A DNA stretch of 64,000 nt from Marinobacter salinisoli (GTDB taxonomy: Bacteria; Pseudomonadota; Gammaproteobacteria; Pseudomonadales; Oleiphilaceae): NCBI RefSeq assembly GCF_017301335.1, contig NZ_CP071247.1, forward strand, positions 1 through 64,000, in the 5' to 3' direction. Every line of letters starts with the position of its first letter. Position 1 is the stretch's first letter. The notes below the pieces were generated by a model. The model did no database searches. It saw only the letters and a program-made list of their open reading frames with translations, and was not told the DNA's origin. The translations under genes were made by a program, and so were the position numbers. Below are positions 9,286-20,280 of the stretch, piece after piece.

Positions 9286-10065
9286 ATGGCCGATCCCATC
9301 AAGGTTTACCCGTCCAAGCCGGACAAAGTCTACTTCTTCGGAACCTGCCTCATTGACATGTTCTATCCGGACGCTGGCATGGCCGGCATCCAGCTGCTGG
9401 AACGCGAAGGTATCGAGGTGATCTTCCCCCAGGATCAGACCTGCTGTGGCCAGCCCGCGTTCACCTCCGGCTATCATGACGAGGCCCGAAGCGTGGCCCG
9501 CGCTCAACTGGATCTGTTTCCTGAAGACTGGCCGATTGTTGTGCCATCAGGGTCCTGCGGCGGCATGATGCGCAAGCACTACCCGGACCTGTTCAAGGAT
9601 ACTGCAGACGAGGTCAAAGCCGCGGGCGTCGCCGGGCGGGTGTGGGAGCTGACCGATTTCCTGCTGAACGTCTGTCACATCAAGCTCGACGACCTCGGAG
9701 AGCCGACCACCGTGGCCATGCACACCTCCTGCTCGGCCCGTCGCGAAATGGGCGTTGCGGAGGTAGGCCCGAAGCTGCTGGGGCAACTGAACAACGTGAC
9801 GCTGGTGGAGCAGGCACGAGCCGAAGAGTGCTGCGGCTTTGGCGGCACCTTCGCGGTGCGCCATCCGGAGATTTCCGGTGCCATGGTGGAAGAGAAGGTC
9901 GAAACCCTGGTGGATACCGGCGCTCGTGCTTTTGTCACCACCGACTGCGGCTGCCTGATGAACATCAACGGGTTCGCAGAGAAAAACCGACACCCCATAG
10001 CGGGCAGGCACATCCTCAGTTTCCTCTGGGAGCGCACGAACGACGATAAAGGAGATGGGCAATGA
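9286..10065 (+). CDS. lutA: Lactate utilization protein LutA/LldE (CCG-domain subunit)
   Basis: 259 residues with two cysteine-rich CCG domains (QTCCGQPAF at 51-59; HTSCSARREMG at 146-156 paired with EECCGFGGTF at 180-189). These resemble the heterodisulfide reductase/GlpC type that binds Fe-S clusters. With LutB and LutC it forms the flavin-independent complex oxidising L-lactate to pyruvate. The stop overlaps the lutB start by four bases. No lactate permease or LutR regulator is adjacent. The ATG at 9286 has only a weak ribosome site. Confidence 0.93.
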   Translation: MADPIKVYPSKPDKVYFFGTCLIDMFYPDAGMAGIQLLEREGIEVIFPQDQTCCGQPAFTSGYHDEARSVARAQLDLFPEDWPIVVPSGSCGGMMRKHYPDLFKDTADEVKAAGVAGRVWELTDFLLNVCHIKLDDLGEPTTVAMHTSCSARREMGVAEVGPKLLGQLNNVTLVEQARAEECCGFGGTFAVRHPEISGAMVEEKVETLVDTGARAFVTTDCGCLMNINGFAEKNRHPIAGRHILSFLWERTNDDKGDGQ

Positions 10066-11495
10066 GCGCGACCACCCCCCATCCGCACATTGATGTCAAA
10101 GAGTTCCACCCCCGGGCCCACGAAGCGCTGCACAACCCGCAAATTCGCCAGAACTTCCGCAAGGCGATGGACGGGCTGATGTCCAAACGCAAAGCGGCGT
10201 TTGAAGGCTGGGACCTGGAAACCCTGCGGGAACTGGGCGCCAACGTTCGCCTGCGGGCACTGGCCAACCTGCCCGACCTGCTGGAACAGCTGGAACAGAA
10301 ACTGACGGAGAATGGCATCAAGGTGCACTGGGCGCTTGATGGCGACGAGGCTTGCCGGATTGTCCGCGATATCTGTGTCGCCCGAGAAGCCAAGAGCGTC
10401 ATCAAGGGCAAATCCATGGTGTCGGAGGAAATGGAGCTCAACCACTTCCTTGAGGGTGAGGGAATTGAAGCGCTCGAGTCGGATCTGGGGGAATACATTG
10501 TTCAGCTCGCCAACGAGACGCCCTCCCACATCATCATGCCGGCCATCCACAAGAACACCGGCGAAATCTCCGAACTGATGCACGAAAAAACCGGCACCGA
10601 CCTGTCCCACGACGTCGAGTACCTGACGGCCGCCGCCCGCCAGCAGCTGCGGGAAAAATTCATGAACGCCGACGTGGGCGTGTCGGGCGTGAACTTTGCG
10701 GTGGCGGAAACCGGCACCCTGTGCCTGGTGGAAAACGAGGGCAACGGACGGATGACCACCACCGTGCCGCCCTGCCACATCGCAGTCACCGGCATCGAGA
10801 AAGTCGTACCCAATCTGGCGGACGTGTCCGCCCTGCTCGCGCTGCTGACCCGGTCGGCCACCGGGCAACACATCACCACCTACTTCAACATGATTTCCAG
10901 TCCGCGCAAGGCCGACGAACTCGATGGCCCCGAAGAGGTGCACCTGGTGCTGGTGGATAACGGGCGTTCCGTCATCTACCAGGATGACGAACTGCTCGAT
11001 ACCCTGCGCTGCATTCGCTGCGGGGCGTGCATGAACCACTGCCCGGTGTATACCCGGGTTGGCGGCCACACCTACGGCACCACCTATCCGGGTCCTATCG
11101 GCAAGATCCTGATGCCGCACCTGATCGGGCTGGACGAAGGCCGGCATCTGCCCAGTGCATCCAGCCTGTGTGGTGCCTGTGGCGAAGTCTGCCCGGTGAA
11201 AATTCCAATCCCCGATTTGCTGGTGCGCCTGCGCCGGGAATCCGTGGATGGTGACAAGTTGCACCCCGCCAAGGTTCGCGGGCACGGGGCCAAGCGAACA
11301 CCGCTGGAGGCCGCCATCTGGAAATTCTGGAGCTGGATGCACAGCCGCCCGGGCATCTACCGGACCGGAACCCGGTTTGCGTCCCGGTTCCGCAAACTGC
11401 AGCCGGCACGTGCCGGTGCCTGGACGGATTTCCGGACAGCGCCCAAACTGGCCGGCAAAACCCTTCATCAACAGCTCAGGGAGCGCGGCAAGTGA
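10062..11495 (+). CDS. lutB: Lactate utilization iron-sulfur protein LutB/LldF
   Basis: 477 residues. The N-terminal LUD domain covers roughly residues 65-300 (SEEMELNHFLEGEGIEALES, then GVNFAVAETGTLCLVENEGN). It is followed by two 4Fe-4S motifs, CIRCGACMNHCP near 317 and CGACGEVCPVKIP near 369, and a C-terminal DUF3390-type tail. It is the electron-transfer subunit of LutABC. It overlaps its neighbours by four bases on each side, so it is one operon. Confidence 0.94.
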   Translation: MSATTPHPHIDVKEFHPRAHEALHNPQIRQNFRKAMDGLMSKRKAAFEGWDLETLRELGANVRLRALANLPDLLEQLEQKLTENGIKVHWALDGDEACRIVRDICVAREAKSVIKGKSMVSEEMELNHFLEGEGIEALESDLGEYIVQLANETPSHIIMPAIHKNTGEISELMHEKTGTDLSHDVEYLTAAARQQLREKFMNADVGVSGVNFAVAETGTLCLVENEGNGRMTTTVPPCHIAVTGIEKVVPNLADVSALLALLTRSATGQHITTYFNMISSPRKADELDGPEEVHLVLVDNGRSVIYQDDELLDTLRCIRCGACMNHCPVYTRVGGHTYGTTYPGPIGKILMPHLIGLDEGRHLPSASSLCGACGEVCPVKIPIPDLLVRLRRESVDGDKLHPAKVRGHGAKRTPLEAAIWKFWSWMHSRPGIYRTGTRFASRFRKLQPARAGAWTDFRTAPKLAGKTLHQQLRERGK

Positions 11496-12148
11496 GTGCC
11501 CGAGACATCATCCTGCAACGCCTGAGAAACCGCACCGGTGGCGATCTGGTAGCGCCCGCCAGCGACTTTTCCGTGCTTGAGCGGCCCGACTGGAGCACCG
11601 AGGAACGCATCGAGCGGTTCGAGAAGATCATTGAATCGGTGCACGGTGAAGTCCACCGATGCACCCGGGATAACTGGATTGACCACGTCGCCGAGGTGTT
11701 GTCGGCACGCAAAGCGCGCAATCTGCTGATTCCCAGCCAGCACCAGATTGGCCAGGACCTGCGCGCGCACGCAGAGCGGGACGATCTGCCGAATCTGCTG
11801 ATCTACGATGAGCCCATTGAAAGCTGGCAGCCGGCCCTGTTCAACGATGTCGACGCTGGCATCACCTCCACCCGGGGCGGCATTGCCGAGACCGGCTCGC
11901 TGATCCTGTGGCCAACGGCGGACGAGCCCCGGCTGATGAGTCTGGTGCCGCCGATCCACATTGCGGTGCTGGAGGCCAGCCAAATCTATACAACGCTGTA
12001 TGAAGCCCTTGATGCCCAGAACTGGAAAGCGGGCATGCCGACCAACGCTCTGCTAATATCCGGCCCGTCTAAAACGGCGGACATCGAGCAGACGCTCGCT
12101 TACGGTGTTCACGGCCCCAAAGAGCTGATTGTGTTGATTATCGAATGA
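11492..12148 (+). CDS. lutC: Lactate utilization protein LutC/LldG
   Basis: 218 residues, a single LUD domain. The family glycine-rich segment is ITSTRGGIAETGSLILWPTA and the end is [16 protein letters not shown], both typical of LldG. It is the third LutABC subunit. Its start overlaps lutB and its stop overlaps the following permease gene (ATGA at 12145-12148), which ties that exporter to the operon. Confidence 0.93.
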   Translation: MSARDIILQRLRNRTGGDLVAPASDFSVLERPDWSTEERIERFEKIIESVHGEVHRCTRDNWIDHVAEVLSARKARNLLIPSQHQIGQDLRAHAERDDLPNLLIYDEPIESWQPALFNDVDAGITSTRGGIAETGSLILWPTADEPRLMSLVPPIHIAVLEASQIYTTLYEALDAQNWKAGMPTNALLISGPSKTADIEQTLAYGVHGPKELIVLIIE

Positions 12149-15953: not shown

Positions 15954-17012
15954 ATGACCACGCCCAAAGAACACGACGACGCGCAGCAAACCTCCGGCCG
16001 AAGGCTCGTACTCTTCAGCCTCCTGTTCCTTGTGCTCAGCGCCGCAGGGCTGTACACGGTGTTCGACCGGTTTGCCGGCCGATCGGTCAGCTTCGATACC
16101 AGATTGCTGGAACCGACCACCCTGCTGGCCGCAGCCGTGCTGTTGCTGATCTATTTCGTCTCTGATGCCCTGCGCCTGTACTACACACTCCGGGCACTCG
16201 GTCATCGGCTGCCGCTGCCGCGCATGGTGCGCCTGGTCTTCATCAACCTGTTTTTCTCAAACGTCACGCCCATGGCCACGGGCGGCGGATTTGCGCAAAT
16301 CTGGTACCTGACACGGCAGGGCGTGCCGGTGGGCCGGGCAACTGCAGCGACCACCATCCGCACGATCCTGGCGGTTGTATTTATCTTCAGCCTGACCCCG
16401 GTTTTCCTGTTAACCCTGCCGGCGTTGAAAGAGCACACCGTTACCGGCGAGATTGGCGCCGCCCTGGCGGTTCTGATTGCACTGTATCTGGGATTCTTCG
16501 CCATTCTGCTGTTCAGGACCCGCTGGCTGATTGTGCCGCTGAGCCGGCTGCTTGGCGCCCTGCACCGCTGGCACCTGATCGGAGACGAAAAACACCGCCG
16601 ATGGCAATTCAAAGCGCGGCGGGAAATGCTCCGCCTGTCCCAGAGCTTTGGCCACTACCTGCAAGGCCCGCGCCCGTTCGTGCTGCTGTCGCTGTTCTTC
16701 ACCGGCACCTTTCTGCTCAGCCTGTTCAGCTTTCCTGCCCTGCTGATTCACAGTCTCGATTACCAGGTGGATTATCTGATGACACTCGGGTTGCTGGTGG
16801 TCACCACCTTTATCATGTATTTCTCGCCGACACCCGGCGCCTCGGGCATATCCGAGGGCGTCTTCGGCAGTTTTTTCAGCGGCATCGTATCGGGCAACCA
16901 TCTCATTCTGGTTACCGTGTCCTGGCGCTTCCTGACCATCTACCTGGGCATGATCGTGGGTATGTTTGTCATGCACAATGAACTGAACAAAAGCAGAAGG
17001 CATTCCAGATGA
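15954..17012 (+). CDS. YbhN/UPF0104-family (LPG synthase-like) membrane protein
   Basis: 352 residues with about seven or eight transmembrane helices. Motifs of the lysylphosphatidylglycerol synthase/AglD2 membrane family are present: FINLFFSNVTPMATGGGFAQ (residues 95-114) and MYFSPTPGASGISEGVFGSF (about 286-305). Members are thought to flip or transfer lipid-linked groups. It lacks the C-terminal catalytic domain of MprF. Its stop overlaps the start of the glycosyltransferase fusion, so the two are probably one functional unit acting on a lipid-linked sugar. Confidence 0.85.
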   Translation: MTTPKEHDDAQQTSGRRLVLFSLLFLVLSAAGLYTVFDRFAGRSVSFDTRLLEPTTLLAAAVLLLIYFVSDALRLYYTLRALGHRLPLPRMVRLVFINLFFSNVTPMATGGGFAQIWYLTRQGVPVGRATAATTIRTILAVVFIFSLTPVFLLTLPALKEHTVTGEIGAALAVLIALYLGFFAILLFRTRWLIVPLSRLLGALHRWHLIGDEKHRRWQFKARREMLRLSQSFGHYLQGPRPFVLLSLFFTGTFLLSLFSFPALLIHSLDYQVDYLMTLGLLVVTTFIMYFSPTPGASGISEGVFGSFFSGIVSGNHLILVTVSWRFLTIYLGMIVGMFVMHNELNKSRRHSR

Positions 17013-19252
17013 AGGTTCGCAAGCCGCTGAAGCTCCTGTTTTATCTGTGCCTGCTGACGATCACCGTCCTGGTGGGGTACAAGGCCTACCTGAATTATTT
17101 CCTGGAAGACTACCGGGCGCTGCACACCGAACAATTGGACCGGATTCAGCAGAGGGTCGCAGACAAAGAGGCGTTCCGCTTCGCGGTCGTGGGCAACATC
17201 AACAATTCCATCGGGATTTTCGAGAAGCGCATGGTTCCCGTGCTCAACGAGTCCGGTGTGGATTTCCTCATTTCTGCCGGCAATGCCGTCAGTGGCGGGG
17301 GTGCGGACAAGTACCGGGCCCTGCTGGGCAGCCTGTCTCACCTGGATATTCCCTATCTGCTCACGTTCGGCCCGCATGAATACGAGGAATTTGGCAGCTT
17401 TCGGTTCTACGAGCACTTCGGACCTCATTTTTTCAGTGCCCGGGTCGGGAACAGCCGCCTGATTTTCCTGGATTCGACCGGAAAAACCTCCTGGCGCTGG
17501 CAGCTACGCTGGCTGGATGATGTGCTCGCCCGGGACAACTCAAACAGTCGCATCCTGTTTGTTGGACACCCCCCGAAGCCGGCAACGCAGGACCCGCTGT
17601 TCGACGAACAGGAAGATTACCTGCATCCACCGGAATTCCGCGCTGCGCTGCTTGAGACCATCGACAAGCACAAGATTGATCTGGTGTTCTCCGCCAACCT
17701 CTCGCTGTATTCAGAGAGCCCTGCCGGGAACGCAACCTTCATCACAACGGGTGGCGCCGGTGGGCTGGTGCTGAATGACGACACCAGTTTCTATCACTAT
17801 GTCCGTGTCGAGGTGGATAAAAATGGCGACATCAGCCACAGCCTGCAACGCCTGCCCGTTGGCCAGCACCCGATCCTGAAGCGCCTGGAGAGTGCCTGGC
17901 TGTTTCTGTATTCGCTGCTTTACTCCGGCTACCTGAACTTCCTGCTGATTCTGGCGATACTGGTTGCCATCGCCATCAAGCTGTATTCCGCGTTGTTCGT
18001 CAGCAAGAACTTTTACCCCGACTACGATCTGGACCCCTCTGCGTGGCTGAACCGCTCCCTTCGGGTGGCCATGTTCACCAATAACTACCTGCCCTTCATC
18101 GGCGGTGTGCCCATATCCATTGAACGCCTCCGGCGGGGCCTGCAAGAGGGCGGTGACCAGACCCTGATCGTGGCGCCGAGGTACAAAGACCAGCCCGACC
18201 CCGAGGCCGGTGTGCTGCGGGTTCCCGCACTCCTGGCACTGGGTGAAAAAAGAGAATTCCGCATTGCCAACCTTTTCCTGAAGCGAATCCGCAAGGGCGT
18301 CAGGGACTTCCGGCCCGACATAATTCACCTGCACCACCCTTTCTGGCTTGGCTCGCTGGGCTTGTTTCTGGCCCGATCGCTGAAGGTGCCGGCCATCTAT
18401 ACCTATCACACCCGGCTGGAGCACTACGCCCACTTCGTTCCCCTGCCCGGCGCCCTGTTCCGGAATCTGATCTCGCACAGCCTGATCCGCCGCTTCGCCA
18501 ACAAATGCGACGGCATCATCGTGCCAACCCACTCGGCGGAGGAATACCTCCGGATGATCGGCGTCAAGAGCCCGACCTATGTGCAGCCCACCGGCATTGA
18601 GTACCAGCGTTTCCAGGAAGATTGCACCGAGCAGGTGAGCGAGCTCAGGCAGAAACTGCAACTGAGCGATGAGCGGGTGTTGATCAGTGTGTCCCGGCTA
18701 TCCAACGAAAAGAACATCGACTTCATGATCGACGCGATGAGCACCCTGCGCAAGCAGACCGACCGGGCCTTCCGGTTGCTGATCATCGGCGAGGGCCACC
18801 AGCGCGAGCGGTTGCAAAAGAAGATCCGTGATCTGGATCTGGCGGCACAGGTGACGCTCGTCGGGGCTATCCCCCCCGAGCAAATGCCCCACTGGTATCA
18901 CCTCGGCGATGCCTTTGTGTTTGCCTCGAAATCAGAAACCCAGGGCATGGTCATACTGGAGGCCATGGCCGCCGGCTTGCCCGTGGTAGCGGTCAGATCC
19001 AGCGGTATTGATGATGTGGTCAGGCAGGGCGTTAACGGGTTCAAAACGCCTGAGAACCAGGAGCTCTGGATCAAACAGGTACGCCAGCTGCTGGAAGACG
19101 ATGACCTTCGCAACACCCTGTCGGAGCAGGCACTGGCGTTTGCCAAAGACTTCTCCATCGAACAGTTTGCCGCCGATGTGCGCCACATCTACGCCAGTGC
19201 CCTGACCCAGAGAGACAAGTCGCAAGAGGACGATTCGGCGCACGCATCCTGA
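17009..19252 (+). CDS. Fusion of a degenerate metallophosphoesterase and a GT4 glycosyltransferase
   Basis: 747 residues. An N-terminal membrane anchor (about 8-27) precedes a calcineurin-like phosphoesterase domain (55-265), one or two membrane segments (296-330) and a GT-B glycosyltransferase family 4 domain (351-735). The GT half looks active: TNNYLPFIGGVPISIERLRR, HLHHPFWLGSLG, and the EX7E motif in SETQGMVILEAMAAGLPVV; it resembles diacylglycerol glucosyltransferases. The phosphoesterase half has lost metal ligands: D-x-H became NIN (63-65), GDxxD became GNAVS (91-95), GNHE became GPHE (121-124) and GHxH became ANLS (229-232). Only GH at 186-187 survives. It is therefore probably a binding or structural domain facing the periplasm. 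Confidence 0.85.
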   Translation: MKVRKPLKLLFYLCLLTITVLVGYKAYLNYFLEDYRALHTEQLDRIQQRVADKEAFRFAVVGNINNSIGIFEKRMVPVLNESGVDFLISAGNAVSGGGADKYRALLGSLSHLDIPYLLTFGPHEYEEFGSFRFYEHFGPHFFSARVGNSRLIFLDSTGKTSWRWQLRWLDDVLARDNSNSRILFVGHPPKPATQDPLFDEQEDYLHPPEFRAALLETIDKHKIDLVFSANLSLYSESPAGNATFITTGGAGGLVLNDDTSFYHYVRVEVDKNGDISHSLQRLPVGQHPILKRLESAWLFLYSLLYSGYLNFLLILAILVAIAIKLYSALFVSKNFYPDYDLDPSAWLNRSLRVAMFTNNYLPFIGGVPISIERLRRGLQEGGDQTLIVAPRYKDQPDPEAGVLRVPALLALGEKREFRIANLFLKRIRKGVRDFRPDIIHLHHPFWLGSLGLFLARSLKVPAIYTYHTRLEHYAHFVPLPGALFRNLISHSLIRRFANKCDGIIVPTHSAEEYLRMIGVKSPTYVQPTGIEYQRFQEDCTEQVSELRQKLQLSDERVLISVSRLSNEKNIDFMIDAMSTLRKQTDRAFRLLIIGEGHQRERLQKKIRDLDLAAQVTLVGAIPPEQMPHWYHLGDAFVFASKSETQGMVILEAMAAGLPVVAVRSSGIDDVVRQGVNGFKTPENQELWIKQVRQLLEDDDLRNTLSEQALAFAKDFSIEQFAADVRHIYASALTQRDKSQEDDSAHAS

Positions 19253-19332: not shown

Positions 19333-20280
19333 GTGAGCCAGATCCCCGTTGGAATCAGCACCTGTCTGCTGGGCAAAGAAGTTCGACACGATGGCGGCCA
19401 CAAGCACTCGCGCTACTGCACCCAGGTGTTGTCCAAGCACTTCGAGTTTCGTTCGATCTGCCCCGAGCTGGAAGCGGGCCTGGGTGTGCCTCGCCCGGCC
19501 ATTCACCTGCGGGAATACGACCAGGGCCTGCGGCTGATCGAGAGCAAGGGCACGGCAGACCACACCGACGCCATGAACGGTTTTATCGAGCGCATCCTGC
19601 CCAGCCTGAAAGATCTGCGCGGCTACATCCTGATGGCCAAGTCCCCCAGCTGTGGCATGGAGCGGATCAAGGTTCATAACGAAGATGGCAGGGTGACCCG
19701 AAGGGATGGCCGCGGGCTGTTCGCCGAAGCCCTGATGAAGGCCTACCCCCTGATGCCGGTGGAAGAAGAGGGCCGGCTGCACGATGACATGCTTCGGGAA
19801 AACTTCATCGAGCGGGTGTTTGCCTACGACGACTGGATGCAGAATGTCGCGGGCGAGAACCTGAGCCCCAAGGCGCTGATCGAATTCCACACCCGGCACA
19901 AGTTTCAGCTACTGGCCCACTGCGAAAAGATCTACCGGCAACTCGGCCCGCTGCTGTCTGACCTGAAGTCCGCTCCACTGGAGGAAACGGCCGAGCAGTA
20001 CCTGCACCTGTTCATGGAAGCCATGAGCCAGAGAGTCAGCCGGGGTTCGCACACCAACGCCATGCAACATCTGATGGGTTATCTGCGGGACAGCCTCGGG
20101 GATGAGGAGCGCAAAGTCCTGATCGAGCAGATGGAGGCGTACCGCCGGGGCGAGGTACCGCTGGTCGTGCCCATGACCCTGCTGCGAATGGCGCAACGGC
20201 GGGAGCCGGTGGATTACCTGAGTATTCAGCAATACCTGACCCCCTACCCGGATGAGCTGGGGCTTCGCAACAAGGTCTGA
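19333..20280 (+). CDS. DUF523-DUF1722 fusion protein (YbgA/TudS-like)
   Basis: 315 residues. DUF523 spans about 1-150 with its conserved cysteines ([46 protein letters not shown]), and DUF1722 (YbgA) spans about 190-310. DUF523 proteins include a Fe-S thiouracil desulfurase; the DUF1722 role is unknown, and the pairing is common in gammaproteobacteria, often near photolyase genes. A GGAG ribosome site precedes the ATG. The stop directly abuts the stop of the convergent DUF481 gene, with no space for a terminator. Confidence 0.88.

Follow-up and report, generated by a model that had tools for sequence, protein, structure and literature searches.

The window analysed here is a stretch of 64,000 nucleotides from Marinobacter salinisoli (contig NZ_CP071247.1, positions 1 to 64,000), and our subject is one gene within it, which encodes a fusion of a metallophosphoesterase-like domain to a glycosyltransferase (GT) of family GT4 (Table 1); the gene overlapping its start encodes a UPF0104 flippase-like protein. 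An earlier note, made from the sequence alone, had given the N-terminal half a calcineurin-like fold with metal ligands replaced in four motifs, and had placed the two halves on opposite sides of the membrane. AlphaFold models and structure matches bear out the fold, which is that of a metallophosphoesterase, with Foldseek matches including VPS29 and GAP50 (the VIA-align 2 rows only re-examine matches already returned by Foldseek), and the window protein scores 24.9 bits against PF00149, over the 21.5 cut-off, despite the loss of every metal ligand. The membrane layout also held up, in the helices of the models, in hydropathy and in charge bias; the second membrane segment consists of helices 288–305 and 308–331, the latter likely the spanning one. 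The predicted topology, with the phosphoesterase-fold domain extracytoplasmic and the GT half cytoplasmic, is well supported by the models, as is the layout as a whole together with the pseudo-enzyme status described below.

Table 1. Features of the fusion gene and its upstream neighbour in the window (residue numbers refer to the fusion protein).
Feature	Position	Strand	Basis or conservation
UPF0104/LPG_synthase_TM flippase-like protein; 4-base overlap with fusion start	15954..17012	+	PF03706, TIGR00374
Fusion protein, 747 amino acids: signal anchor, pseudo-metallophosphoesterase, membrane segment, GT4 glycosyltransferase	17009..19252	+	Open reading frame (ORF), domain scans, two AlphaFold models
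Membrane helix 1, residues 6–30, N-terminus inside	17024..17098	+	AlphaFold helix, Kyte-Doolittle peak, charge bias
Pseudo-metallophosphoesterase domain, residues 52–285 (approximate), purple acid phosphatase/GpdQ fold	17162..17863	+	Domain scan, structure matches, HMMER
Former motif I, G-N-I-N-N-S, residues 62–67; Asp ligand replaced by N63	17192..17209	+	Family alignment
Former motif II, residues 90–97; bridging Asp replaced by N92	17276..17299	+	Family alignment
Former motif III, G-P-H-E, residues 121–124; Asn ligand replaced by P122	17369..17380	+	Family alignment
Former motif IV, G-H-P, residues 186–188; His ligand replaced by G186	17564..17572	+	Alignment; HMMER to 6hwr, 2qfp
Former motif V, S-A-N-L-S, residues 228–232; two His ligands replaced by N230, S232	17690..17704	+	Alignment, HMMER
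T-G-G-A-G-G loop, residues 247–252, near-invariant	17747..17764	+	Family alignment
Membrane segment 2, residues 288–331	17870..18001	+	AlphaFold model, hydropathy
GT4 (GT-B) glycosyltransferase half, residues 352–734	18062..19210	+	Domain scans, curated families, structure matches
H-T-R-L-E-H-Y-A-H, residues 467–475, N-lobe	18407..18433	+	Each position kept in 83–88 of 88 rows
EX7E motif, E643...E651	18935..18961	+	Kept in 88 of 88 rows

The loss of the metal site extends beyond the four motifs first claimed, as none of the six ligand columns is kept in the window protein (they read N63, N92, P122, G186, N230 and S232), and N65 stands at the place of the phosphoesterase family's motif I His. 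We compared 111 fusion rows, drawn from Pseudomonadota, Desulfobacterota, one Bacillota metagenome-assembled genome (MAG) and one spirochaete MAG, with 11 canonical standalone references, four of them homology-search matches and seven frames chosen by, and so partly matching by construction, the motifs G[NE]H[DE] and GHxH. Five or six of the six ligands are present in all 11 references. Among the fusions 102 rows keep none, nine keep one and no row keeps more, a few rows being fragments with gaps at some ligand columns (four begin after motif I, and P0211 is without the stretch of motifs IV and V). Column 92 is Asn in 109 of the 111 rows and Asp in two; column 186, His in every canonical row, is Gly in 86 and His in one. 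With a HMMER family profile (33 rows, four of them active-type phosphoesterases), the His residues of the H-x-P and GHxH motifs of kidney bean purple acid phosphatase fall opposite G186, N230 and S232. N63, N66, S67 and N92 were invariant among the 120 homologues listed, query included, most of the named ones being Marinobacter and many near-identical.

A fusion with an intact metal site was found neither among these 111 rows nor in the 369 genomes searched at class level, a search that left out three listed matches without a locus. Matches occurred in 31 of those genomes, seven of them long fusion matches and 24 others. Twenty-three of the other loci were inspected, of which 21 carry a canonical phosphoesterase frame, one a standalone phosphoesterase of 316 amino acids (L116) and one a frame of 146 amino acids (L130). 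Six larger phosphoesterase frames combine PF00149 with a purple-acid-phosphatase N-domain and have no GT, as far as the loci reach; the remaining canonical frames were judged by eye from their first 400 residues. The two observations that the earlier note had named as decisive against it, relatives with intact metal motifs in the same fusion or a fold unlike a metallophosphoesterase, were not made in the material searched. It is well supported by these alignments that the N-terminal domain would be a pseudo-enzyme, without the residues for a di-metal centre, and the substitution of every metal ligand sets it apart from purple acid phosphatases and GpdQ. Two pieces of the dead domain (P0121 and P0141) are publicly named 'metallophosphoesterase', and such names on pieces of a dead protein are a warning.

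The former active site is nevertheless anything but degraded. In a sample of 44 representatives below 75% identity, the pocket loops average 3.31 bits of conservation over 35 positions versus 2.54 over the 198 other positions of the domain, a mean reached by none of 20,000 random position sets. Near-fixed in the fusions are N63, N66, S67, G91, N92, E124 (in 111 of 111 rows) and the GGxGG loop. The 11 canonical rows vary at the positions of N66 and S67, in a loop that aligns with gaps, and for this reason the two residues look acquired. The median ratio of nonsynonymous to synonymous substitution rates (dN/dS) was 0.085 for the phosphoesterase domain and 0.068 for the GT half, over 45 non-independent pairs from 71 of 80 loci with overall dS of 0.15–0.8. 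A decaying remnant of a once-active fused phosphoesterase, with no present function, might be argued from the loss of all ligands, from columns 122, 123, 187 and 232, which drift within the fusion family, and from GT clade members in which the domain is missing; we reject this as scarcely credible, given that low dN/dS, the specific replacement residues common across phyla and the failure to find an intact-site fusion in the rows and genomes searched. As far as sequence comparison can tell, the pocket is rebuilt and kept, not eroded. Since the same design with an altered pocket is kept in distant bacteria, these data suggest a new role for the dead domain.

One such role might be a metal-free reaction on a glycolipid head group (e.g. 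hydrolysis or transfer) by Glu124 and the Asn/Ser cluster. The invariance of E124 and near-invariance of N66, S67 and N92 do resemble a catalytic site, and two histidines are likewise conserved among the representatives, H136 in 39 of 44 and H263 in 39 of 43. We nonetheless consider new catalysis improbable: no catalytic arrangement is recognisable in the domain, only 54 of the 111 rows keep His123, which takes the position of the catalytic His, and we know of no metal-free enzyme of metallophosphoesterase fold, which counts against it. No basic residue occurs among the fixed positions of the pocket loops, which are Asn, Ser, Gly and Thr with a single Glu; this composition leans to a neutral sugar as the ligand.

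The architecture is not a Marinobacter-only oddity, an explanation that we rejected after recovering the fusion across the order, the class and further phyla. Long fusion matches were obtained in 14 of 194 genomes of the order (the window's own genome counted), in 7 of the 369 genomes of the class search and in 5 of 198 genomes from the phylum of a Desulfobacterales MAG. A scan of species genomes gave 210 relatives, of which the best 80 were taken, including Idiomarina, six Pseudomonas records and Fodinicurvata; by record names alone, the family is skewed to marine or saline species. A search with the GT half gave 1233 matches, and the best 120 of these add, again by record name, Thermodesulfobacteriota, Desulfobacterium, Desulfohalobiaceae, Vreelandella, Peptostreptococcaceae and Spirochaetaceae. 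Among 26 proteins from this search that were inspected, 23 have the dead domain, whole or in part, ahead of the GT, the exceptions being P0182, P0202 and P0262. The end of the domain is also visible in a Halanaerobium-named fragment, P0229. In P0202, which may be a chimeric contig, a CoA-binding-type domain (PF02629, PF13380) before the membrane segment replaces the pseudo-phosphoesterase. Nitrincola sp. A-D6 has the dead domain (P0141) and the GT (P0182) as two proteins; their contigs share the same length (26,554), and the fusion gene therefore looks split. Marinobacter similis (L042, from 6001) has a fusion ORF of no more than 471 amino acids, which looks like an interrupted gene or a sequence error.

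The two halves are co-inherited: their distances correlate in 37 proteins (r = 0.93), and none of 2000 permutations reached as high a value. In the GT tree the fusion rows fall in a 61-row clade with a support of 91/94 and occupy both sides of its first fork, for which reason a single old fusion followed by later losses would be the simplest history. This depends on the root, which like the outgroup joins is unsure. Several rows of the tree need to be read with care: O_L149 and O_L160 are one gene, nine rows were skipped and L150 gave none, many of the 'short' rows are contig-edge fragments, S_P0213 retains part of the dead domain, and F_P0202 is labelled a fusion, yet its N-terminus is another domain.

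The upstream gene product scores 131 bits against PF03706 and 84.4 bits against TIGR00374, and at E 0.001 no second PF03706 match occurs in the genome. We examined 89 loci, made up of the 80 best species-genome loci (mostly Marinobacter) and nine picked from the order and class searches; one of them, L068, is cut by a contig edge. In 78 of the 89 a UPF0104 match lies directly upstream on the same strand and ends no more than 80 bases from the fusion match. The four Desulfobacterota loci with flanks are more varied, as the UPF0104 gene overlaps the fusion frame in two (L152, L153), and runs in the opposite direction in L154, while the PF03706 matches of the L155 genome are located elsewhere. 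A partial metagenome protein of 460 amino acids on a 2.2-kb contig, P0262, has the C-terminal part of a UPF0104 protein running straight into a GT4 that nests within the fusion's GT clade, the flippase end replacing the pseudo-phosphoesterase; only the last 46 PF03706 positions are present, and their 25.6 bits fall below the 33.4 cut-off since the protein is cut there. The dead-domain fusion is confirmed as a real observation, and a stronger one than first stated; the earlier note did not have the wide spread of the layout, the frequent adjacency of the flippase-like gene, the remodelled and frozen pocket or the joining of flippase and GT in P0262.

The pair occurs as well in an alphaproteobacterial record, Fodinicurvata fenggangensis (L102, 4947–8208), where identity is about 63%; this suggests that the two genes moved horizontally as a unit. 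In Marinobacter sp. HL-58 (L066, 4750–8214) an ORF of 344 amino acids is found in the flippase's place and a PF03706 protein elsewhere in the genome. In genome G751 (L153, 1036–7663) a VTT/DedA gene, a PAP2 gene and a VTT-PAP2-LssY fusion precede the flippase and fusion genes, in what looks, by its predicted domains, like a lipid transport and phosphatase cluster. Within the window, the gene downstream of the fusion (19333–20280) combines a 2-thiouracil desulfurase domain (PF04463) with DUF1722 and has no evident link to it, and three consecutive ORFs at 9286–12148 resemble, judged by eye, a LutABC-type lactate utilisation operon.

The GT half scores 142 bits against PF00534, and its GT-B fold and EX7E motif, the latter already pointed out in the earlier note, place it in GT4 (the 88-row alignment used for motif conservation excluded two of the 89 loci, L042 and L058, with frames of 650 residues or fewer). 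The conserved H-T-R-L-E-H-Y-A-H stretch is probably the acceptor side. Among curated families the best for this half is alpha-monoglucosyldiacylglycerol synthase (NF049988; 199.2 bits, below its cut-off of 400), aligned over model positions 2–390 of 398, followed by GlcNAc-phosphatidylglycerol synthase GpgS (NF053787; 131 bits, below its cut-off of 480). Members of NF049988 are known as single-domain enzymes. The same family comes first in all six other proteins scanned, with 143–199 bits when the window protein is included and every score below 400; five of the six score 156–193, and the GT of a gpgSDF-like cluster (L160) scores 143. A GT acting on a polyprenyl-linked or wall glycan precursor, with the dead domain binding that periplasmic glycan, would be compatible with the overlap between GT4 families (BshA, MshA, TuaC and EpsE models give 85–105 bits on this half) and with the structure matches in the PDB, MshA, BshA and PimA, which MshA and BshA lead. 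We regard this as quite unlikely, because a diacylglycerol glucosyltransferase is the best curated family throughout, a UPF0104 gene stands next to it, and inspection by eye of the surrounding ORFs in the window and at seven other loci revealed no glycan cluster.

How does the fusion compare with known systems? The nearest experimental GT4/UPF0104 analogue that we found is GpgSDF of Pseudomonas aeruginosa, which in the available text is described as synthesising glucosaminyl phosphatidylglycerol, with a GT4 gene beside a UPF0104 (YbhN-type) gene, a lipid as acceptor and a flippase activity of GpgF that is unproven (PMC12713373). In the same available text GpgS is predicted to be cytoplasmic and no phosphoesterase half is mentioned (PMC12713373). 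The trio also includes a deacetylase, GpgD, whereas the best PF10096 match in the whole window genome, at 2.34 Mb, has 21 bits, below the 26-bit cut-off; of a GpgSDF/HexSDF-type module the locus has the UPF0104 gene beside the GT and not the deacetylase. A gpgSDF-like trio does occur in genome G596 (L160, 4222–7232), where DUF2334 deacetylase-like, GT4 and UPF0104 genes stand in a row near a VTT/DedA-looking gene. HexSDF of Clostridioides difficile similarly encodes a lipid glycosyltransferase, a deacetylase and an MprF-like flippase together; it differs in that HexS is, in the part of the source available, annotated as a monogalactosyldiacylglycerol synthase (PMC10128005), and the words 'metallophos' and 'phosphoesterase' occur zero times in the text of that paper. 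The PlcP-Agt system also encodes a metallophosphoesterase with a GT4 glycolipid synthase, in the available account as separate, often adjacent genes and with PlcP of phospholipase C type (PMC9239053); the fusion is a single membrane-spanning protein. Identity with PlcP-Agt is not supported, the metal site being absent in the fusion; the two were set apart without a direct comparison to the PlcP sequence.

Metallophosphoesterase folds that serve other ends than catalysis have been reported as a scaffold, in the retromer subunit VPS29 (PMC9636581, available portion). By the title of its structure entry, GAP50 of the Plasmodium inner membrane complex uses the fold as an anchor. Both are eukaryotic and are not known to be fused to a glycosyltransferase, and to our knowledge pseudo-enzymes of this fold are known mainly as eukaryotic scaffolds. 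By analogy with VPS29 or GAP50, the main rival to the reading that we favour is that the dead domain might be a docking platform or membrane anchor holding the GT beside the UPF0104 protein or another envelope partner, with no small-molecule ligand. We find this doubtful, as conservation is higher in the loops of the old active site than elsewhere in the domain, and these loops stay frozen in loci that lack the flippase. Glycolipid modules of GT4 and UPF0104 proteins and pseudo-phosphoesterase scaffolds were known separately; what appears new is both in one transmembrane protein. The earlier note knew of no described system with this layout, and we likewise found no description of it in the open-access literature searched, including searches on Marinobacter glycolipids and on glucosyl-phosphatidylglycerol in halophiles. 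Halophilic Gammaproteobacteria with glucosyl-phosphatidylglycerol, from work of the 1970s, provide an unconfirmed lead only.

The reading that we tentatively prefer, with less than even confidence, is that of a membrane glycolipid synthase with two sides, in which the extracytoplasmic pseudo-phosphoesterase would bind the head group of the flipped lipid, or monitor that lipid, or meet or monitor the exporter. The cytoplasmic GT4 half would probably use a nucleotide sugar to attach a hexose to a glycerolipid, either diacylglycerol or phosphatidylglycerol, and the UPF0104 protein encoded by the overlapping gene would probably move the glycolipid product to the outer leaflet. There the mouth of the old active site, with its Asn, Ser, Glu and Gly, would bind the sugar head group, in the service of product hand-off or of feedback across the membrane. 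While the fold, the lost site, the membrane split and the same losses in relatives have all stood, the suggestion of the earlier note that the dead domain senses or holds a lipid-linked product fits these data and goes no further than that. A bolder version, in which the domain is a transmembrane lipid gauge whose pocket reads how much of a specific glycolipid the outer leaflet holds and sets the activity of the inner-leaflet synthase via the connecting membrane helix, we consider unlikely.

Several observations weigh against a flippase-coupled glycolipid synthase. The substrate of the GT is not settled, because 199 bits compare with a cut-off of 400 bits, and the polar lipids given for one Marinobacter species in the available text of PMC11371751 are phosphatidylethanolamine, phosphatidylglycerol, diphosphatidylglycerol and an aminolipid, with no glycolipid listed there. 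When judged by circular shifts, the conservation of the pocket is no more than moderate, as 4 of the 232 shifts reach the observed mean. K101 and R103, conserved directly past the motif II loop, could line the pocket, which weakens the argument for a neutral ligand and makes a charged one possible. Some members of the GT clade (e.g. P0242, P0270 and P0271) begin at the GT, with no phosphoesterase domain. Against an obligate tie to the flippase, 11 of the 89 loci, including every one of the six from Pseudomonas, have no adjacent flippase, and no PF03706 match was found in three of the nine genomes with the fusion that were tested (G352, G560 and G561, the completeness of the last two not being stated). 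The frozen pocket residues are unchanged in all 11 of these flippase-less loci, and for this reason the pocket does not depend on the flippase as a neighbour.

What these data describe is a family of bacterial proteins from several phyla that keep a rebuilt dead phosphatase pocket tied across the membrane to a probable lipid glycosyltransferase. With its flippase-like partner the fusion is a candidate synthase and exporter of a membrane glycolipid in Marinobacter and its relatives, and a testable candidate for the coupling of glycolipid synthesis to the content of the outer leaflet. Were the lipid gauge true, the domain would act as a pseudo-enzyme thermostat of membrane composition that Pseudomonadota, Desulfobacterota and Bacillota inherit as a single unit.

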